This document shows positions 12,068-63,757 of a DNA stretch of 64,000 nt, one piece after another; the stretch's first letter is position 1; each line of letters starts with the position of its first letter. The notes under the pieces were generated by a model. It saw nothing but the letters and a program-made list of their open reading frames with translations. It was not told the origin of the DNA and did no database searches. Source of the DNA: Tupaia tana (Eukaryota > Chordata > Mammalia > Scandentia > Tupaiidae); the NCBI GenBank assembly GCA_026018925.1, contig JAKSZU010000003.1, forward strand, positions 186,093,505-186,157,504, in the 5' to 3' direction. Both the position numbers and the translations under genes were made by a program.

Positions 12068-13292
12068 GCTGTCACAATCAGAAGGAAGATAAGGAGAAAC
12101 AGTATCAACTAACCTGGAAAAGAATAACCACCCTCCTCCCCTCACCTCGGAGTAGGGGTAGAACAAAGTCTGTATCATTTCTTTGAGTGTTAAGACTTTT
12201 TTTCCGCGTAAGAAGAAAACAAAGTAGAGGAACTGCGTTAGAGACTTTAAAGCAGAAATCAAGTGCAAGAAGGTCCTGTATGTAGCTCCCCAACGAACTC
12301 GACACCCCAACTGCAGTGAGCTTTGATAGAACAGAGGCATTTTGCAAAAGGAAGAAGGGGGTGGAGTTAAGAGTGGAGGTTGAAGCACTGTACACTCGGG
12401 CTGTTTCCCCCTGACTCCCACCGTCCTCCTGGGCTCCAGACAGGCGGCTGCAGAGCGGGGCAAACTCCGAAGACTGAAGGGCCTCTGCCACGGCAGGCCC
12501 CTCACCCCACCAGGAAAGAGATGACTCGAGGGCAGAGGTAACCAGGGCCCTAAAGGAGGTGGTGAACAGGAAGTGTCCACATTGCAGTACGGAAACACCA
12601 ACAACCCACCAAGACAGCCTCACTCGGAGGCCCCCACGATGCCTGCTGGAAGGAAGGCAAGAGGGTACCGTAGTCACCCCCACCCGGGACTCGCCCCTGT
12701 GCCCGCGTCCCCCCAACGCCCGGCCGCCCTGCAGCCCGAAGTTCACGCAGGGCCGCGCCCGGCGCCTTCCCGGGCACTACTTTGCCGGGCCCAGCCAGTC
12801 CCGCCTGCGGCCGGACGAGGACTCCACGCCCCGCACGTCTCGCTCCACTCGGAGCGGGAGGAGGGGACGTTGCAAAGGCTCCCGAGAGGCTGGGGTACTT
12901 CCTCTAACGGCGGACACCCCCAAGTCGAGCCCTATTCGTCCCCCGGGCCACTTCCGAGCCTGCCCCGACAGCCGACACCCATCGCCGTGGTTTCGGCCGC
13001 GCAACACCCCCTCCCAGGCGGTCCTCACCTTTCGGGAGAAACTCCTAACTCCTCACGAGACCACACGCCCCTCATTCGACACCCCGGGGCCCACGCACGA
13101 CTCGGGCCGCCCGCGGGGGAACACTCCCGCGCCAGCGCCAATTCTTCACAGGACAAAAATGTCCGGACGAGTCACGGGACAGCCACCTCCGCGCCCCACG
13201 CCCGGCTCCCGCCGCCCGCGCTGCCTCCGCGCCCGCGAGCCGCTCCTTCCCGGGGGCCGGGACCGGGAGCGCGCCGCTCACCCGGGACTCAC

Positions 13293-13505
13293 CGTCAGCT
13301 CGGCCGCCGCGGAGGGGAGGCGAGGGACCGGCAGGCAAAGACACAATATGGCAGAGCACCGCAGCTGCTGCCTGCGGCTTCCAGCAGCCGCCTCCGGGAA
13401 GACGCGGCAACGAGCAGGCAGCGGCAGCTGCGGTGGCGGCCCCGGCAGCACCACATCCCCCTCCCGCTCGCTTCCTCCCCCTCCCACCTCCTTCCCGGCT
13501 GCCAT
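13293..13505 (-). other. Candidate first exon of an unidentified leftward gene
   Basis: On the minus strand an ATG in good context (GCCATGGCAGCC) at 13505 opens 71 codons ending exactly at GCTGACG/GTGAGT, a consensus 5' splice site at 13293/13292 in phase 0. The peptide begins MAAGKEVGGGG and is low-complexity. The frame may equally be chance within a 5' UTR exon. A YY1-like CTGCCATATTG word occurs downstream, a type often seen near +1 of CpG-island promoters. No downstream exon was recognised, so the gene is unnamed. The exon is plausible; its coding status is uncertain. Confidence 0.4.
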
Positions 13506-13511
13506 GGCAAC
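13498..13511. promoter_or_regulatory. RFX-type X-box
   Basis: GCTGCCATGGCAAC matches the palindromic X-box (GTTGCCATGGCAAC) at all but the first bases. It overlaps the candidate minus-strand ATG. RFX factors bind such sites at ciliary and MHC-II promoters. Function here is inferred only. Confidence 0.55.
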
Positions 13512-13697
13512 GCGGCGCCAAGGAGATTAGCCCCACCCCTCCCTTCCGTGCCCGCCTCCCGCGACCCCTGGGAAGGCGTTCGGTCTACCCCTCCCCGATC
13601 TCCCCCCCGACCCCTCCCAACTCCTACCGAAGGGTGGCCGGGGCCCCGGGCAGCCCGGAGCGGCTGGGGGGTGGGGGACGAGATGTGGGGTCCGGAA

Positions 13698-13706
13698 GGG
13701 CGGGGC
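13698..13706 (+). promoter_or_regulatory. GC box (Sp1-type)
   Basis: GGGCGGGGC, upstream of the presumed leftward start site. Confidence 0.5.
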
Positions 13707-13867
13707 TCGCACGGAAGGCTGGGCGGAGACGTTGTGGGCCAGTGCGGGTTTCGGGCTGAGCTGGGGCAGGAGAAGGCGGGAAAATGGAAAGGCCTCGCCT
13801 GTCGGGGGAAGGACCTATAGGAGTGCGGCGGAGGCGCGGCTCCGCCTCTGAGTGGCCGAGATGGCAC

Positions 13868-13877
13868 GGGGCGGGGC
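13868..13877 (+). promoter_or_regulatory. GC box (Sp1-type)
   Basis: GGGGCGGGGC, second consensus GC box of the island. Confidence 0.5.
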
Positions 13878-14129
13878 GAGGGTGGCTGTCCGCGGAGGCC
13901 GGCCGGCTGTGCCTGTGCCCGGGCCGCAGCAGTGGCTGTCAACAGCCGGTTTCTGTGCATGCTCCCCTGAGCTTTCCACCATTGACCAGGCTCTGAAAGC
14001 ACTTTCAAGACAATAACTCGTTGCTATATACTTAAAGTAATATTACCCTCGCTTAGCTGAAATTTTGTGTGGAAACTGAACTAAGCGTGTTTGTGGTGAG
14101 TGGAAAAAAAGGAATCACATCCAAAATTT

Positions 14130-19850: not shown

Positions 19851-21430
19851 TATTTAATTTTTCTGGTATAGCATTCCCTTGAGAACGTGGTGATCTGGTC
19901 TGGTGTTGGTAAATTCTTTCAGGTTTTGTTTATCTGAGAATATTCTTGTCTTTTCTTCCCATATGAAGGATAATCTCACTGGGTACAGTATTCTTGGTTG
20001 AAATTGCTTTCCCCTTAACACTTTGAATATATTTTCCAATTCTTCCCTCGCTCGAATTGTTTCTGATGAGAAGTTTGTTGTTAGCCTGATGAGATATCCT
20101 TTGTTGATAACTTGACATTTCTCTCTTGCCAATCTTAGTATCTTGTCTTTGTGACTTTGGTCGACCTGGCTATAATGTGTCTTGGAGAAGATCTTCTAGG
20201 GTTGATTCTATTTGGGGTCCTTTGTATTTCTTGGGCCTGGATCTTTGAGTGCCTCTCTAGGTTTGGAAAGTTTTCTTGCAGGATTTCATGGAATAGGTTA
20301 TCAATGCCCTTATGAGTCTCTTCACCATCTGAGATACCAATTATCCAGATGTTTGGACGTTTGATGAAATCTAGTATTTCTCATATATTATTCTCATTCT
20401 GGGGGGCCATATTCTCAGTCTTCATAGTGGATTTTTCTAGGCCAGTGATTCTATCTTCTACATCTGAGATTTGATTTTCTGTATGATCTAGTCTGCTTTT
20501 AAGGGAGATTTTTACTTTCTGTATTATAGCCTTCATCTCTAACAGGTCCATCTGATTCTTTTTTTCGAGTGTATATTTCCTCCTTTAGATCTTGCAAGAA
20601 TTTCCTCATCTCCTGGAACTTGTCAGTTCCTTTCTCCTGCCTCTTTTTCAGTTCATTGTTTCTCTTCTCTTCCATCTCTGTTAGCTTTGTCATTATGAAT
20701 ATTCTAAAATCTTTATCAGACATTTCCATGAGTTTCATTATACTGTCTGAGGATGAAGAGGTGTTATTCTTTTCCCTTGGAGGAGAGGTATTCTCTTGCT
20801 TTCCCGTATTTCTTGTGATCTTGCGGTGATTTCTAGTCATCTGATGAATGGTATATTTCTTCTTAATTCTTGAAGTTCAATCTGAGTGTTCAGAGGTGAA
20901 CAGAAGAAGGTGATCTTCAATCTTTCTTCAGTTCCATTTTCACTCTTTGTGCATCAAATTCAAAGTGAAGAGAGGAATATTCTGATCCTACTCACATTCA
21001 GATGATTGGAAACTGTTCACTTGGACCTGTCTAGACACTTAGTGCATAGAGGCCACTAGAAATGAGTCTGGAGGGGGAAGTCTCAGCAGAAAAATCTTCA
21101 TTTTTGGTCAAGGAAACCAATATTTCAGAGCTGAAGTACGGTATCCATATCAGGATTTGTGGTTCCATCTATAGAGAAAGCCAGGCTCATAGAGGGCTAC
21201 ATCTTCTTCATATGTGATGGTGAGGTTTGAGGTTTGTCTTCCAAGAGGGTTCAAAGAACAAGACAGAACAGAACAGGACAGGATAGGACAGGAACACCCA
21301 AAGAAATGCCTCCAGAGCAGGAAAAGATGGAATTTGACTGGGCCTTGGAGAATGGAGTATGGGAGAGAAAAGAAATGACAGTCCAGATAATAGAAGAAAA
21401 CAGGTTCCTGTAAATGAAGGCCTGAAAGCC
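19850..21430 (-). mobile_element. L1 (or HAL1-type) fragment: 5' UTR plus broken ORF1
   Basis: Read right to left: putative 5' UTR (about 21430-20841), then an ATG at 20840 opening ORF1. A Lys/Glu-rich coiled-coil region follows (MSDKDFRIF, then TKLTEMEEKRNNELKKRQE). Next, with frame breaks, come the RNA-binding region (IIGISDGEE, NPRRSSPRHIIA) and the C-terminal domain (IRLTTNFSSETIRAREE, FQPRILYPVRLSFI, TRPDHHVLKGML). This is the normal ORF1p domain order. ORF2 is not seen to the left, so the element is either a 3'-truncated L1 or an ORF1-only HAL1-like element. Frameshifts make it inactive. Confidence 0.88.
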
Positions 21431-37497: not shown

Positions 37498-37666
37498 TTT
37501 AAAAAATTATAGAAACATGCTATATTGCAAGAGCCCAGAACACAAATTGGTATATATTAAAATTTCAGTAAGTATTTACCAATGAATGAATGGTTAGATG
37601 CATGAATAGATGAGACCTTAACCACACAGGCCAGTAGGGAGAAAAGGAAGGTTAAGAATGGTGGAG

Positions 37667-38505
37667 TGGCCGGGGTTCTGCCCCCGCGTGCCGTGGCCGG
37701 GGTCTGCCCCGCGTGCCGTGGCCGGGACTCTGCCCCGCGTGCTGTGGCCGGGACTCTGCCCCCGCGTGCCGTGGCCGGGGCTCTGCCCCGCGTGCCGTGG
37801 CCGGGGTTCTGCCCCGCGTGCCGTGGCCGGGGTCTGCCTCCGCGTGCCGTGGCCGGGGTTCTGCCCCGCGTGCCGTGGCCGGGGTCTGCCCCGCGTGCCG
37901 TGGCCGGGACTCTGCCCCGCGTGCCGTGGCCGGGGTCTGCCCCCGCGTGTCGTGGCCCGGGTCTGCCCCGCGTGCCGTGGCCGGGGTTCTGCCCCGCGTG
38001 CTGAGGCCGGGACTCTGCCCCGCGTGCCGTGGCCGGGGCCTGCCCCCGCGTGCCGTGGCCGTGGTCCTGTCCCCGCGTGCCGTGGCCGGGGTCTGCCCCC
38101 TTGTGCCGTGGCCGGGGCCCTGTCCCGCGTGCCGTGGCCGGGGTTCTGCCCCGCGTGCCGTGGCCGGGGTCTGTCCCCCGCGTGCCGTGGCCGGGGTCTG
38201 CCCCCGCGTGCCGTGGCCGGGACTCTGCCCCATGTGCCGTGGCCGGGGTCTGTCCCCGCGTGCCGTGGCCGGGGTCTGCCCCCGCGTGCCGTGGCCGGGG
38301 TCCTGCCCCGCGTGCCGTGGCCGGGGTCCTGCCCCGCGTGCCGTGGCCGGGGTCTGCCCCGCGTGCCGTGGCCGGGACTCTGCCCCGCGTGCCGTGGCCG
38401 GGTTCTGTCCCCCGCGTGCCGTGGCCGGGGCTCTGCCCCCGCGTGCCGTGGCCGGGGTCTGCCCCCGCGGGCCGTGGCCGGGATCTGCCCCGCGTGCCGC
38501 AACCG
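37667..38505 (+). repeat. GC-rich minisatellite (VNTR), about 33 units of 24-27 bp
   Basis: The unit core is GCGTGCCGTGGCCGGG followed by a variable GTCTGCC, ACTCTGCC, TTCTGCC or TCCTGCC spacer. Units differ mainly at that spacer and in the length of the C run. It is open in several frames on both strands (Pro/Arg/Gly/Ala repeats, up to 375 codons) only because it lacks stop words; none is a supportable gene. Confidence 0.95.
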
Positions 38506-38866
38506 CTGATGGCCGTCTCTGCTTTCCTGAGCCGCATTCCTGAAACTGTGTTCCATGGAGATTCACCTACATTTGCGGGGCTGCACGAGACCCACCCTTG
38601 GTCCAGCCCTGAGTGCAGTCTACGTTTCCTATTGTTGGGAACTTTATGATCTGATAATTGGAAAAAAAAAATCATGTTTATCATAAAAAATAATTAGAAT
38701 AATAATAATAATGATTGGGGGAAACATAGGAAAGATATTGAATGTTGAAGCGGGGAGATTAATGTCTCTGTACTGACTGACATGCATGGCATTCCCTTTT
38801 GAAAAAGCAATGTAATACACTGTAAAGTTGTATGTAATTCAATGTAATAAAAAAATAGATAATAAT
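38506..38866 (+). other. Unique 3' domain of the composite element
   Basis: About 360 bp beginning CCGCTGATGGCCGTCTCTG. GC-balanced for its first 130 bp, then AT-rich, ending with TGTAATAAAAAAATAG. It carries the polyadenylation signal and joins the tail. The source is not recognised: it could be a captured mRNA, an LTR or an L1 3' UTR. Confidence 0.75.
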
Positions 38867-38899
38867 AAAAAAAAAAAAAAAAAAAAAAGAATGGTGGAG

Positions 38900-62789: not shown

Positions 62790-63186
62790 GTAGAGATAAT
62801 TTGAAAAATTATGGTATAGATCCTGTGCTTCATATCATGTAGAAAAATTAACTGAAAGCAGATCATAGACATAAATTCGGGAGCAAAAGCAATAAACCAT
62901 TTAGGTAGGCATACTTCTTATTGGGACCTTGTGTTAGTCAATGTTTTTCTGTGGACACTGAAAGCAGAAGCCATTATAAGAAAAAATAGATAAAGCAGAC
63001 AACATCAAAAGTAAAACATTTTGTTCTTCAAATGACAAAATCAAGAAAGTAAAAACATAACTATTAAAAATGGGAGAAAATATTTGTAGATAGTAAAATT
63101 GATAAATAAATTGACTCCCAAATAGAAAAAGAAATCTTACAACTTTAAAATAAAATACAGAAAATCCAATTAGAAATGAATTTGTG
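62790..63186 (+). mobile_element. Ancient L1M ORF2 3' fragment
   Basis: GATCATAGACATAAATTCGG, AAACCATTTAGGTAGGC, GAAAAAATAGATAAAGCAGAC, TTTGTTCTTCAAATGAC and ATGGGAGAAAATATTTG follow the L1 ORF2 C-terminal region in order. No open frame. Confidence 0.75.
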
Positions 63187-63757
63187 GGACCAGCAGTTAG
63201 CGTAATGACTATGTTGCTGGACTCCCACATAGTCGACCGCGGTTTGCGTCCTGGACCCGGTGGCTTAAAACTCACGCTGGGCTGGGAACCAGCAGTTAGT
63301 GTAATGGCTATGTTGCTGGACTCCCACGTAGTCGACCACGGTTCGCGTCCCGGACCCGGTGGCTTAAAACTCACGCCGGGCGCGTGTGCATACGTGCCCA
63401 AGATCCCGAGAGGAGAATGGAGGAGAAGGGATTGCGGCGTGACCATCCCCCTGGGGGGTGATTTCTCGCTTTCTGTCTCTATGTCTCTCTCTCTCTGTCT
63501 GTCTGGCGAGCGCACGTGCCCTATAGCGAAAACCTCTCCAAAAAAAAAAAAAAAAAAAAAAAAAAACCTCACGCTGGGCTCATGTGCGTGCGTGCCCATA
63601 TCCCGAGAGGAGAATGGAGGAGAAGGAATTGCAGTGTGGCCATCTGCCCTGGGGGGTGATTTCTCCCTTTCTGTCTCTCTGTCTCTGTCCTCTGTCTGTC
63701 TGGAGAGTGCACAGGCCCTATAGCAAAAACCTCTAAAAAAAAAAAAAAAGAAAAAAG
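63187..63757 (+). mobile_element. Family A SINE split by a second family A SINE
   Basis: Head 63187-63284 and body from 63569. The outer TSD is AAATGAATTTGTG at 63174-63186 and again from about 63759. Confidence 0.93.
63285..63568 (+). mobile_element. Family A SINE, GGGAACC/GCGAAAACC subfamily
   Basis: Near-consensus. Contains GGGAACCAGCAG, GGTTCGCGTCCCGG, GTCTCTATGTCTC and TATAGCGAAAACC. The inner TSD CTCACGCTGGGCT lies in the host SINE just after its head. Confidence 0.93.

Follow-up and report, generated by a model that had tools for sequence, protein, structure and literature searches.

Composites built around a VNTR are presented as hominoid-specific in PMC4432496, which gives them a CT-rich and Alu-like 5' region and repeat units of 30-50 bp. 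The stretch of Tupaia tana DNA analysed here, 64,000 nucleotides long and hereafter called the window, comes from a non-primate host and contains an insertion of about 1.2 kb (37654-38899) that combines a 13-bp target-site duplication (TSD), a CpG-rich VNTR, a 3' domain, an AATAAA signal and poly(A). What is this element, and from what was it assembled? Very probably it is one of many copies, here truncated at the 5' end, of a young non-autonomous non-LTR retrotransposon, an L1-derived VNTR composite.

The insertion in the window

A perfect 13-bp repeat, AAGAATGGTGGAG, flanks the element on both sides without a gap. It abuts the element on the left (37654-37666), at a TT/AAGA target, and recurs on the right at 38887-38899, just as the initial annotation had read it. 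In a chance control, a word of at least 13 nucleotides was common to 4 of 60,000 random pairs of 20-nt stretches taken from this window at similar spacing. The VNTR occupies 37667-38499 on the plus strand, with about 32 units of 25-27 bp, mostly 26; TRF gives 32.0 copies over 37666-38499 with an 88% match, and the earlier estimate of some 33 units of about 25 bp was a fair one. The units are CpG-dense, as had been claimed: the array has 82% GC and a CpG observed/expected ratio of 0.88, against 0.38 for the window. The last two array units, together with the first bases of the 3' domain (38458-38505, plus strand), make up the commonest VNTR 3' end of the family, this 48-bp string being identical in 18 of the 40 copies that match the window copy best. 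The junction between array and 3' domain, initially set at 38505/38506, is better placed at 38499/38500. Beyond it, still on the plus strand, come a proximal 3' domain (38500-38661) that is nearly always joined to the VNTR, an internal run of ten A (38662-38671) and a distal 3' domain (38672-38864). The AATAAA polyadenylation signal (38846-38851) and a poly(A) tail of 20 A (38867-38886), directly before the right TSD, are where they had been reported. The window copy starts within the VNTR, its array being the remnant of a longer one, and it is therefore a 5'-truncated member of its family. Within the window, no further copy of the array appeared among the best 60 matches, and no further copy of the 3' domain was found.

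Several properties of the array were considered in their own right. Long reading frames are present on both strands because unit lengths vary, and protein coding was rejected; the sole match in a protein database is weak (E 1.8e-4, 30% identity, to an unnamed protein). RNA folding of the VNTR is nothing special when set against shuffles (z 0.15; 13 of 20 shuffles equal or surpass it). One VNTR string and one 3'-domain string gave 0 matches each in viral contigs, and six sequence strings of the element gave 0 matches in the literature. A core motif that we take to be CTCF-like occurs on the minus strand, with at most 2 mismatches, at nine places in the 32-unit array (37667-38499), against a shuffle mean of 2.2 and maximum of 6, none of 300 shuffles reaching nine. 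Since a tandem array multiplies any motif that it contains, this enrichment is a lead only. Binding of BORIS to the SVA VNTR is reported in PMC5007689.

The neighbourhood has features of its own. A tRNA-like SINE family is very dense, covering 20% of the window (an example lies at 63185-63560); some of its copies have a doubled tRNA-like head, and a TSD-like repeat, counted with no control, accompanies 20 of 33 near-full-length copies. The region 12400-14100 is CpG-island-like, with GC up to 72% per kb, and is probably the start of a host gene. On the minus strand there is a remnant L1, in two pieces: 20354-20910, homologous to the front end of the composite described below, and 19854-20195, a dsRBD-like piece.

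A dispersed family with an L1 front end

The assembly (2,948,224,869 bases, 2.95 Gb) was searched with the 3' domain as query. It returned 1,304 first-look candidates, of which the best 40, spread over 17 contigs, were scored: all 40 align at 99-100% identity over 359-361 bp. This sample consists of the window copy and 39 fetched copies with about 6 kb of upstream sequence, all of them best matches to the window copy, which overstates the youth and uniformity of the family. Their mean pairwise divergence of 0.33% is biased low because only the best 40 were scored; in the ORF1 and transition region, described below, the 13 copies that have it differ by 1.3% on average. Genome-wide, junctions between VNTR and 3' domain number 1,183 (at most 3 mismatches), and those between ORF1 and VNTR 599 (at most 2 mismatches), while the start of the 3' domain is found without the VNTR end at only 5 sites (at most 2 mismatches); reversed-pattern controls gave 0 in each case. 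Dispersed copies with a common junction were what the initial annotation had predicted. A 20-mer from the tail of the window copy (38825-38844) has 383 exact sites in the genome. On contig C111, all 14 of its listed sites are composites, and they represent 14 of the 37 exact sites of the stretch 38631-38661 among the matches listed for that contig. The window copy therefore belongs to a part of the family that is probably younger than the rest.

Copies that reach further upstream reveal how the element begins. The 5' module expected of full-length copies was present in 13 of the 40, where a leader and the 5' segment of an L1 ORF1 (534 bp together, 536 in L030) precede the VNTR; in the other 27 the L1 front end is absent. 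In all 13, ORF1 joins the array at the same base. Tandem monomers stand ahead of the L1 segment in 12 of these 13, with two to nine monomer cores, and the thirteenth, L039, has 155 bp of inverted 5' region in their place. Tandem 5'UTR monomers are known in L1 families, as in mouse, and the position of the monomers before an L1 ORF1 suggests that they are L1 5'UTR. The full-length order is L1-type 5'UTR monomers, L1 leader and half of ORF1, VNTR, 3' domain, AATAAA and poly(A). The array of the 13 ORF1-bearing copies spans 640-3,311 bp and opens with a CpG-rich transition of degenerate units, 120-odd bp long; among these copies its opening part and final units are conserved, and its length and inner units are variable. 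Junctions found separately across the genome are also linked. On contigs C111 to C264, the matches listed include 52 exact ORF1/VNTR sites and 98 exact VNTR/3' sites. Of the 52, 29 have a VNTR/3' junction at most 9 kb downstream on the same strand, two of these distances (7,059 and 7,587) being long enough for separate insertions; 23 exact sites have no such partner and none has one on the opposite strand, again among the matches listed.

What the ORF1 segment encodes is the N-terminal and coiled-coil part of the L1 protein. It has a weak match (E 0.0041) to 6fia, the structure of an L1 ORF1 coiled coil, and no L1 family of Pfam matched this N-terminal and coiled-coil part. At the DNA level it is 79% identical to the window's own L1 (20910-20354, minus strand) and 94% and 93% identical to two further genomic L1s. 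The three alignments end at one and the same base, where the L1s read on and the composite enters its CpG-rich array; L1 sites that read through this breakpoint number 2,210 in the genome (at most 2 mismatches). Downstream in the window's L1, the piece 20195-19854 matches the L1 dsRBD-like family of Pfam at 63.6 bits (cut-off 22.2). A match to the RBD-like family reaches 17.4 bits, below its cut-off of 22.4, and when this below-cut-off match is projected back without gaps, the domain would start near 20366, four codons before the breakpoint. This projection suggests that the break in ORF1 falls roughly at the beginning of the RNA-binding domain. The frame is otherwise open in 12 of the 13 copies (L030 has a frameshift), and all 13 composites have in common an in-frame stop that is missing from the two compared genomic L1s. 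Such a common stop argues against retention of the ORF1 piece for its full protein.

The way in which copies enter the genome also bears the mark of L1. Of the 40 copies, 32 have a TSD of at least 9 bp, as the prediction of individual TSDs required; among 1,560 mismatched pairs of 5' and 3' flanks, 69 had one. The count of 32 includes L023, whose 10-bp match may reflect a 5' stretch common to L037, and leaves out L041, where a duplication of 17 bp lies past a second A-tract. Under the rule used, L020, L021, L026, L032, L037, L038, L041 and L044 have no TSD. The target is TT/AA at 15 of the 32 TSD-bearing sites. Two copies carry 5' inversions, a sign of L1 twin priming: L039, with 155 bp of the 5' region on the opposite strand at 92%, and L040. 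The family thus has TSDs, poly(A), TT/AAAA-like targets and 5' truncation or inversion, the hallmarks of L1 activity, and its copies, alike in anatomy and with fixed junctions, are dispersed with their own TSDs and poly(A) and without ORF2, as expected of a non-autonomous retrotransposon mobilised by L1. In three ORF1-bearing copies, L012, L017 and L033, the TSD is immediately followed by GGCCCTTCTTC, the monomer sequence plus one G, and this extra G would fit the start of a capped RNA. Some copies display further oddities at their ends. L023 (contig C275) and L037 (C331) are identical for about 30 bp before the monomers and have similar tail ends, while their wider flanks differ; a 5' transduction from one source is possible. 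In L016, L024, L031 and L041, a second A-tract lies behind the first tail after some 10-20 foreign bases, which resembles short 3' transductions.

An L1 front end, a VNTR and a 3' domain, with TSDs proper to each copy, therefore make this element a non-autonomous parasite of L1. RNA polymerase II would start inside the outermost L1-type monomer, and the transcript would be polyadenylated at AATAAA. The L1 ORF2 protein, made elsewhere, would then copy this RNA in trans by target-primed reverse transcription. What would keep the L1 front end in place is its working promoter, perhaps also an L1-like start of translation, and not a full ORF1 protein.

Two parts of the 3' domain

The initial annotation had described a unique 3' domain of 360 bp. 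The domain is there, but it is made of two parts, and its distal part is common to an abundant family. Two markers in the proximal part, 38584-38613 and 38631-38661, have 1,652 and 1,544 sites genome-wide, whereas the distal marker 38761-38790 has 8,421, about five times as many (at most 3 mismatches in each case). The exact proximal marker is missing within 400 bp of 62 of the 91 exact distal sites listed on C111 below 80.7 Mb. Taken together, this excess and these isolated distal sites indicate that the distal part also belongs to another, more abundant family. The proximal part is family-specific. The jump in copy number falls somewhere between 38661 and 38761, at or after the internal run of ten A, and this run (38662-38671) may mark the place where an older poly(A) end was joined.

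Which family supplied the distal part? It is quite conceivable, if somewhat short of probable, that it is simply the 3' end of the partner L1, the composite being an L1 that has lost all sequence between the middle of ORF1 and the final few hundred bases and has acquired a VNTR. Such an origin is parsimonious for an element with an L1 front end, and the abundance of the distal marker (8,421 sites against some 1,600 for the proximal ones) is in keeping with it, L1 ends being expected to outnumber L1 fronts, here 2,210 sites. However, among the matches listed on C111, none of nine exact L1 ORF1 sites is followed by an exact distal site over the next 12 kb, although these L1s may be of another subfamily; a tenth ORF1 site lies past the range of the distal sites listed. 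No related 3' end of at least 60 bp turned up in the flanks of the copies or in the window. Nor did the analysis turn up a donor for the VNTR or for the proximal 3' domain.

Standing among known elements and rival origins

The composite, an L1-derived parasite as described above, works like an SVA. Both are non-autonomous, with a central GC-rich VNTR, a 3' module carrying AATAAA and poly(A), and TSDs; both insert in the manner of L1 and are frequently 5'-truncated. Yet, judged by descriptions of SVA, the element falls outside that group. The 3' module of SVA, SINE-R, derives from HERV-K. The 5' part of SVA is a CT-hexamer and Alu-like region, and here L1-type monomers and half of ORF1 stand in its place; units are 25-27 bp long rather than the 30-50 bp of the hominoid composites, even though the array is GC-rich (82%); and the host is not a primate. 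The gibbon elements LAVA, PVA and FVA are likewise VNTR composites, with variable 3' modules. According to PMC4432496, LAVA includes a piece of L1 and has conserved units at its VNTR ends; that piece belongs to its 3' part, whereas in the present family L1 provides the 5' end. LAVA arrays are further described as near-perfect EagI repeats, and such units are absent here. SVA2, which PMC4432496 presents as the ancestor of VNTR composites, with 39/40-bp units and an occurrence in macaque, is found in macaque and gibbon and consists of a VNTR and a unique 3' sequence, which is all that the truncated window copy displays. It differs from the family as a whole in unit length (39/40 against 25-27 bp) and in the L1 front end seen in 13 of 40 copies.

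Two kinds of L1 come closer on the 5' side. HAL1 ('half-L1') elements, like this one, are L1 derivatives without ORF2; they keep a complete ORF1. Here, all 13 ORF1-bearing copies have an ORF1 with a stop, which breaks off near the beginning of the RNA-binding domain, at a single base past which the L1 relatives continue, and is fused to a VNTR. Monomer-bearing L1s, such as those of mouse, similarly have a monomer array before ORF1 and copies that start inside a monomer, but in the present case the monomers head a non-autonomous composite. In open-licence full text we found no earlier description of such a composite, and a description or library entry may still exist.

Could the element nevertheless be a true relative of SVA, LAVA or SVA2, inherited or contaminating from a primate? 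This is very improbable. To be sure, the order of GC-rich VNTR, 3' module, poly(A) and TSD is the same, and the ends of the VNTR are conserved (in 13 copies here) as PMC4432496 has it for LAVA and young SVA. Against this, units measure 25-27 bp and not 30-50 or 39/40 bp; what precedes the VNTR is L1 ORF1 and not an Alu-like region in all 13 ORF1-bearing copies; and CGGCCG occurs once in 14 arrays, far from the near-perfect EagI repeats of LAVA. Neither the window nor any of five full-length loci gave an Rfam match, hence none of 7SL type (a scan with no Alu control), and a single tRNA-like SINE family makes up 20% of the window; both observations speak against a simian primate genome. The separation from primate elements uses unit length, EagI sites, the sequence before the VNTR and Rfam in place of sequence alignment, and on that footing an origin independent of the primate composites is likely.

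Even less probable is a late insertion of the VNTR into an L1 that remains autonomous downstream of it. The ORF1 frame, otherwise open in 12 of 13 copies, would agree with this, but in all 13 the 3' domain and an A-rich tail come after the VNTR and leave no room for ORF2, and all 13 share the ORF1 stop. The sample was collected through the 3' domain and would miss any L1 that has the VNTR and ORF2 and lacks this domain. Least probable of all is a one-off processed retrocopy of some host mRNA or lncRNA whose 3' end contains a minisatellite. The window copy, taken by itself, would fit this with its array, 3'UTR-like domain, AATAAA, poly(A) and TSD, but the idea is refuted by 1,183 junction sites, by the separate TSDs of 32 copies out of 40 and by the 13 that have an L1 front end. 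Copy number and separate TSDs likewise rule out a local gene's 3' UTR as source of the 3' domain, so that neither of these two outcomes, named in the initial annotation as fatal to its reading, came about.

Returning to the L1-derived composite, we consider it moderately probable that it is a second, independent origin of VNTR composites, outside primates: a parasite that keeps the front end of L1, its promoters in tandem and the stop in its ORF1 frozen, and in which a CpG-rich VNTR replaces the rest. If so, GC-rich VNTRs would have come to lie between a 5' module and a poly(A)-bearing 3' module in two unrelated lineages, and the array itself would probably be favoured, either for trans-mobilisation by L1 or as a means to evade or make use of host silencing, and would not merely be a historical accident of SVA in primates. 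For the question why VNTR composites need their VNTR, a family with more than 1,000 junction copies, assembled from different parts, allows a comparison: the GC-rich array, its fixed ends and the poly(A) 3' module recur, and the Alu-like 5' end does not. An L1 parasite with L1-type monomers and a stop-bearing piece of ORF1 could also serve to test whether the 5' end of L1 alone gives access to the L1 machinery.
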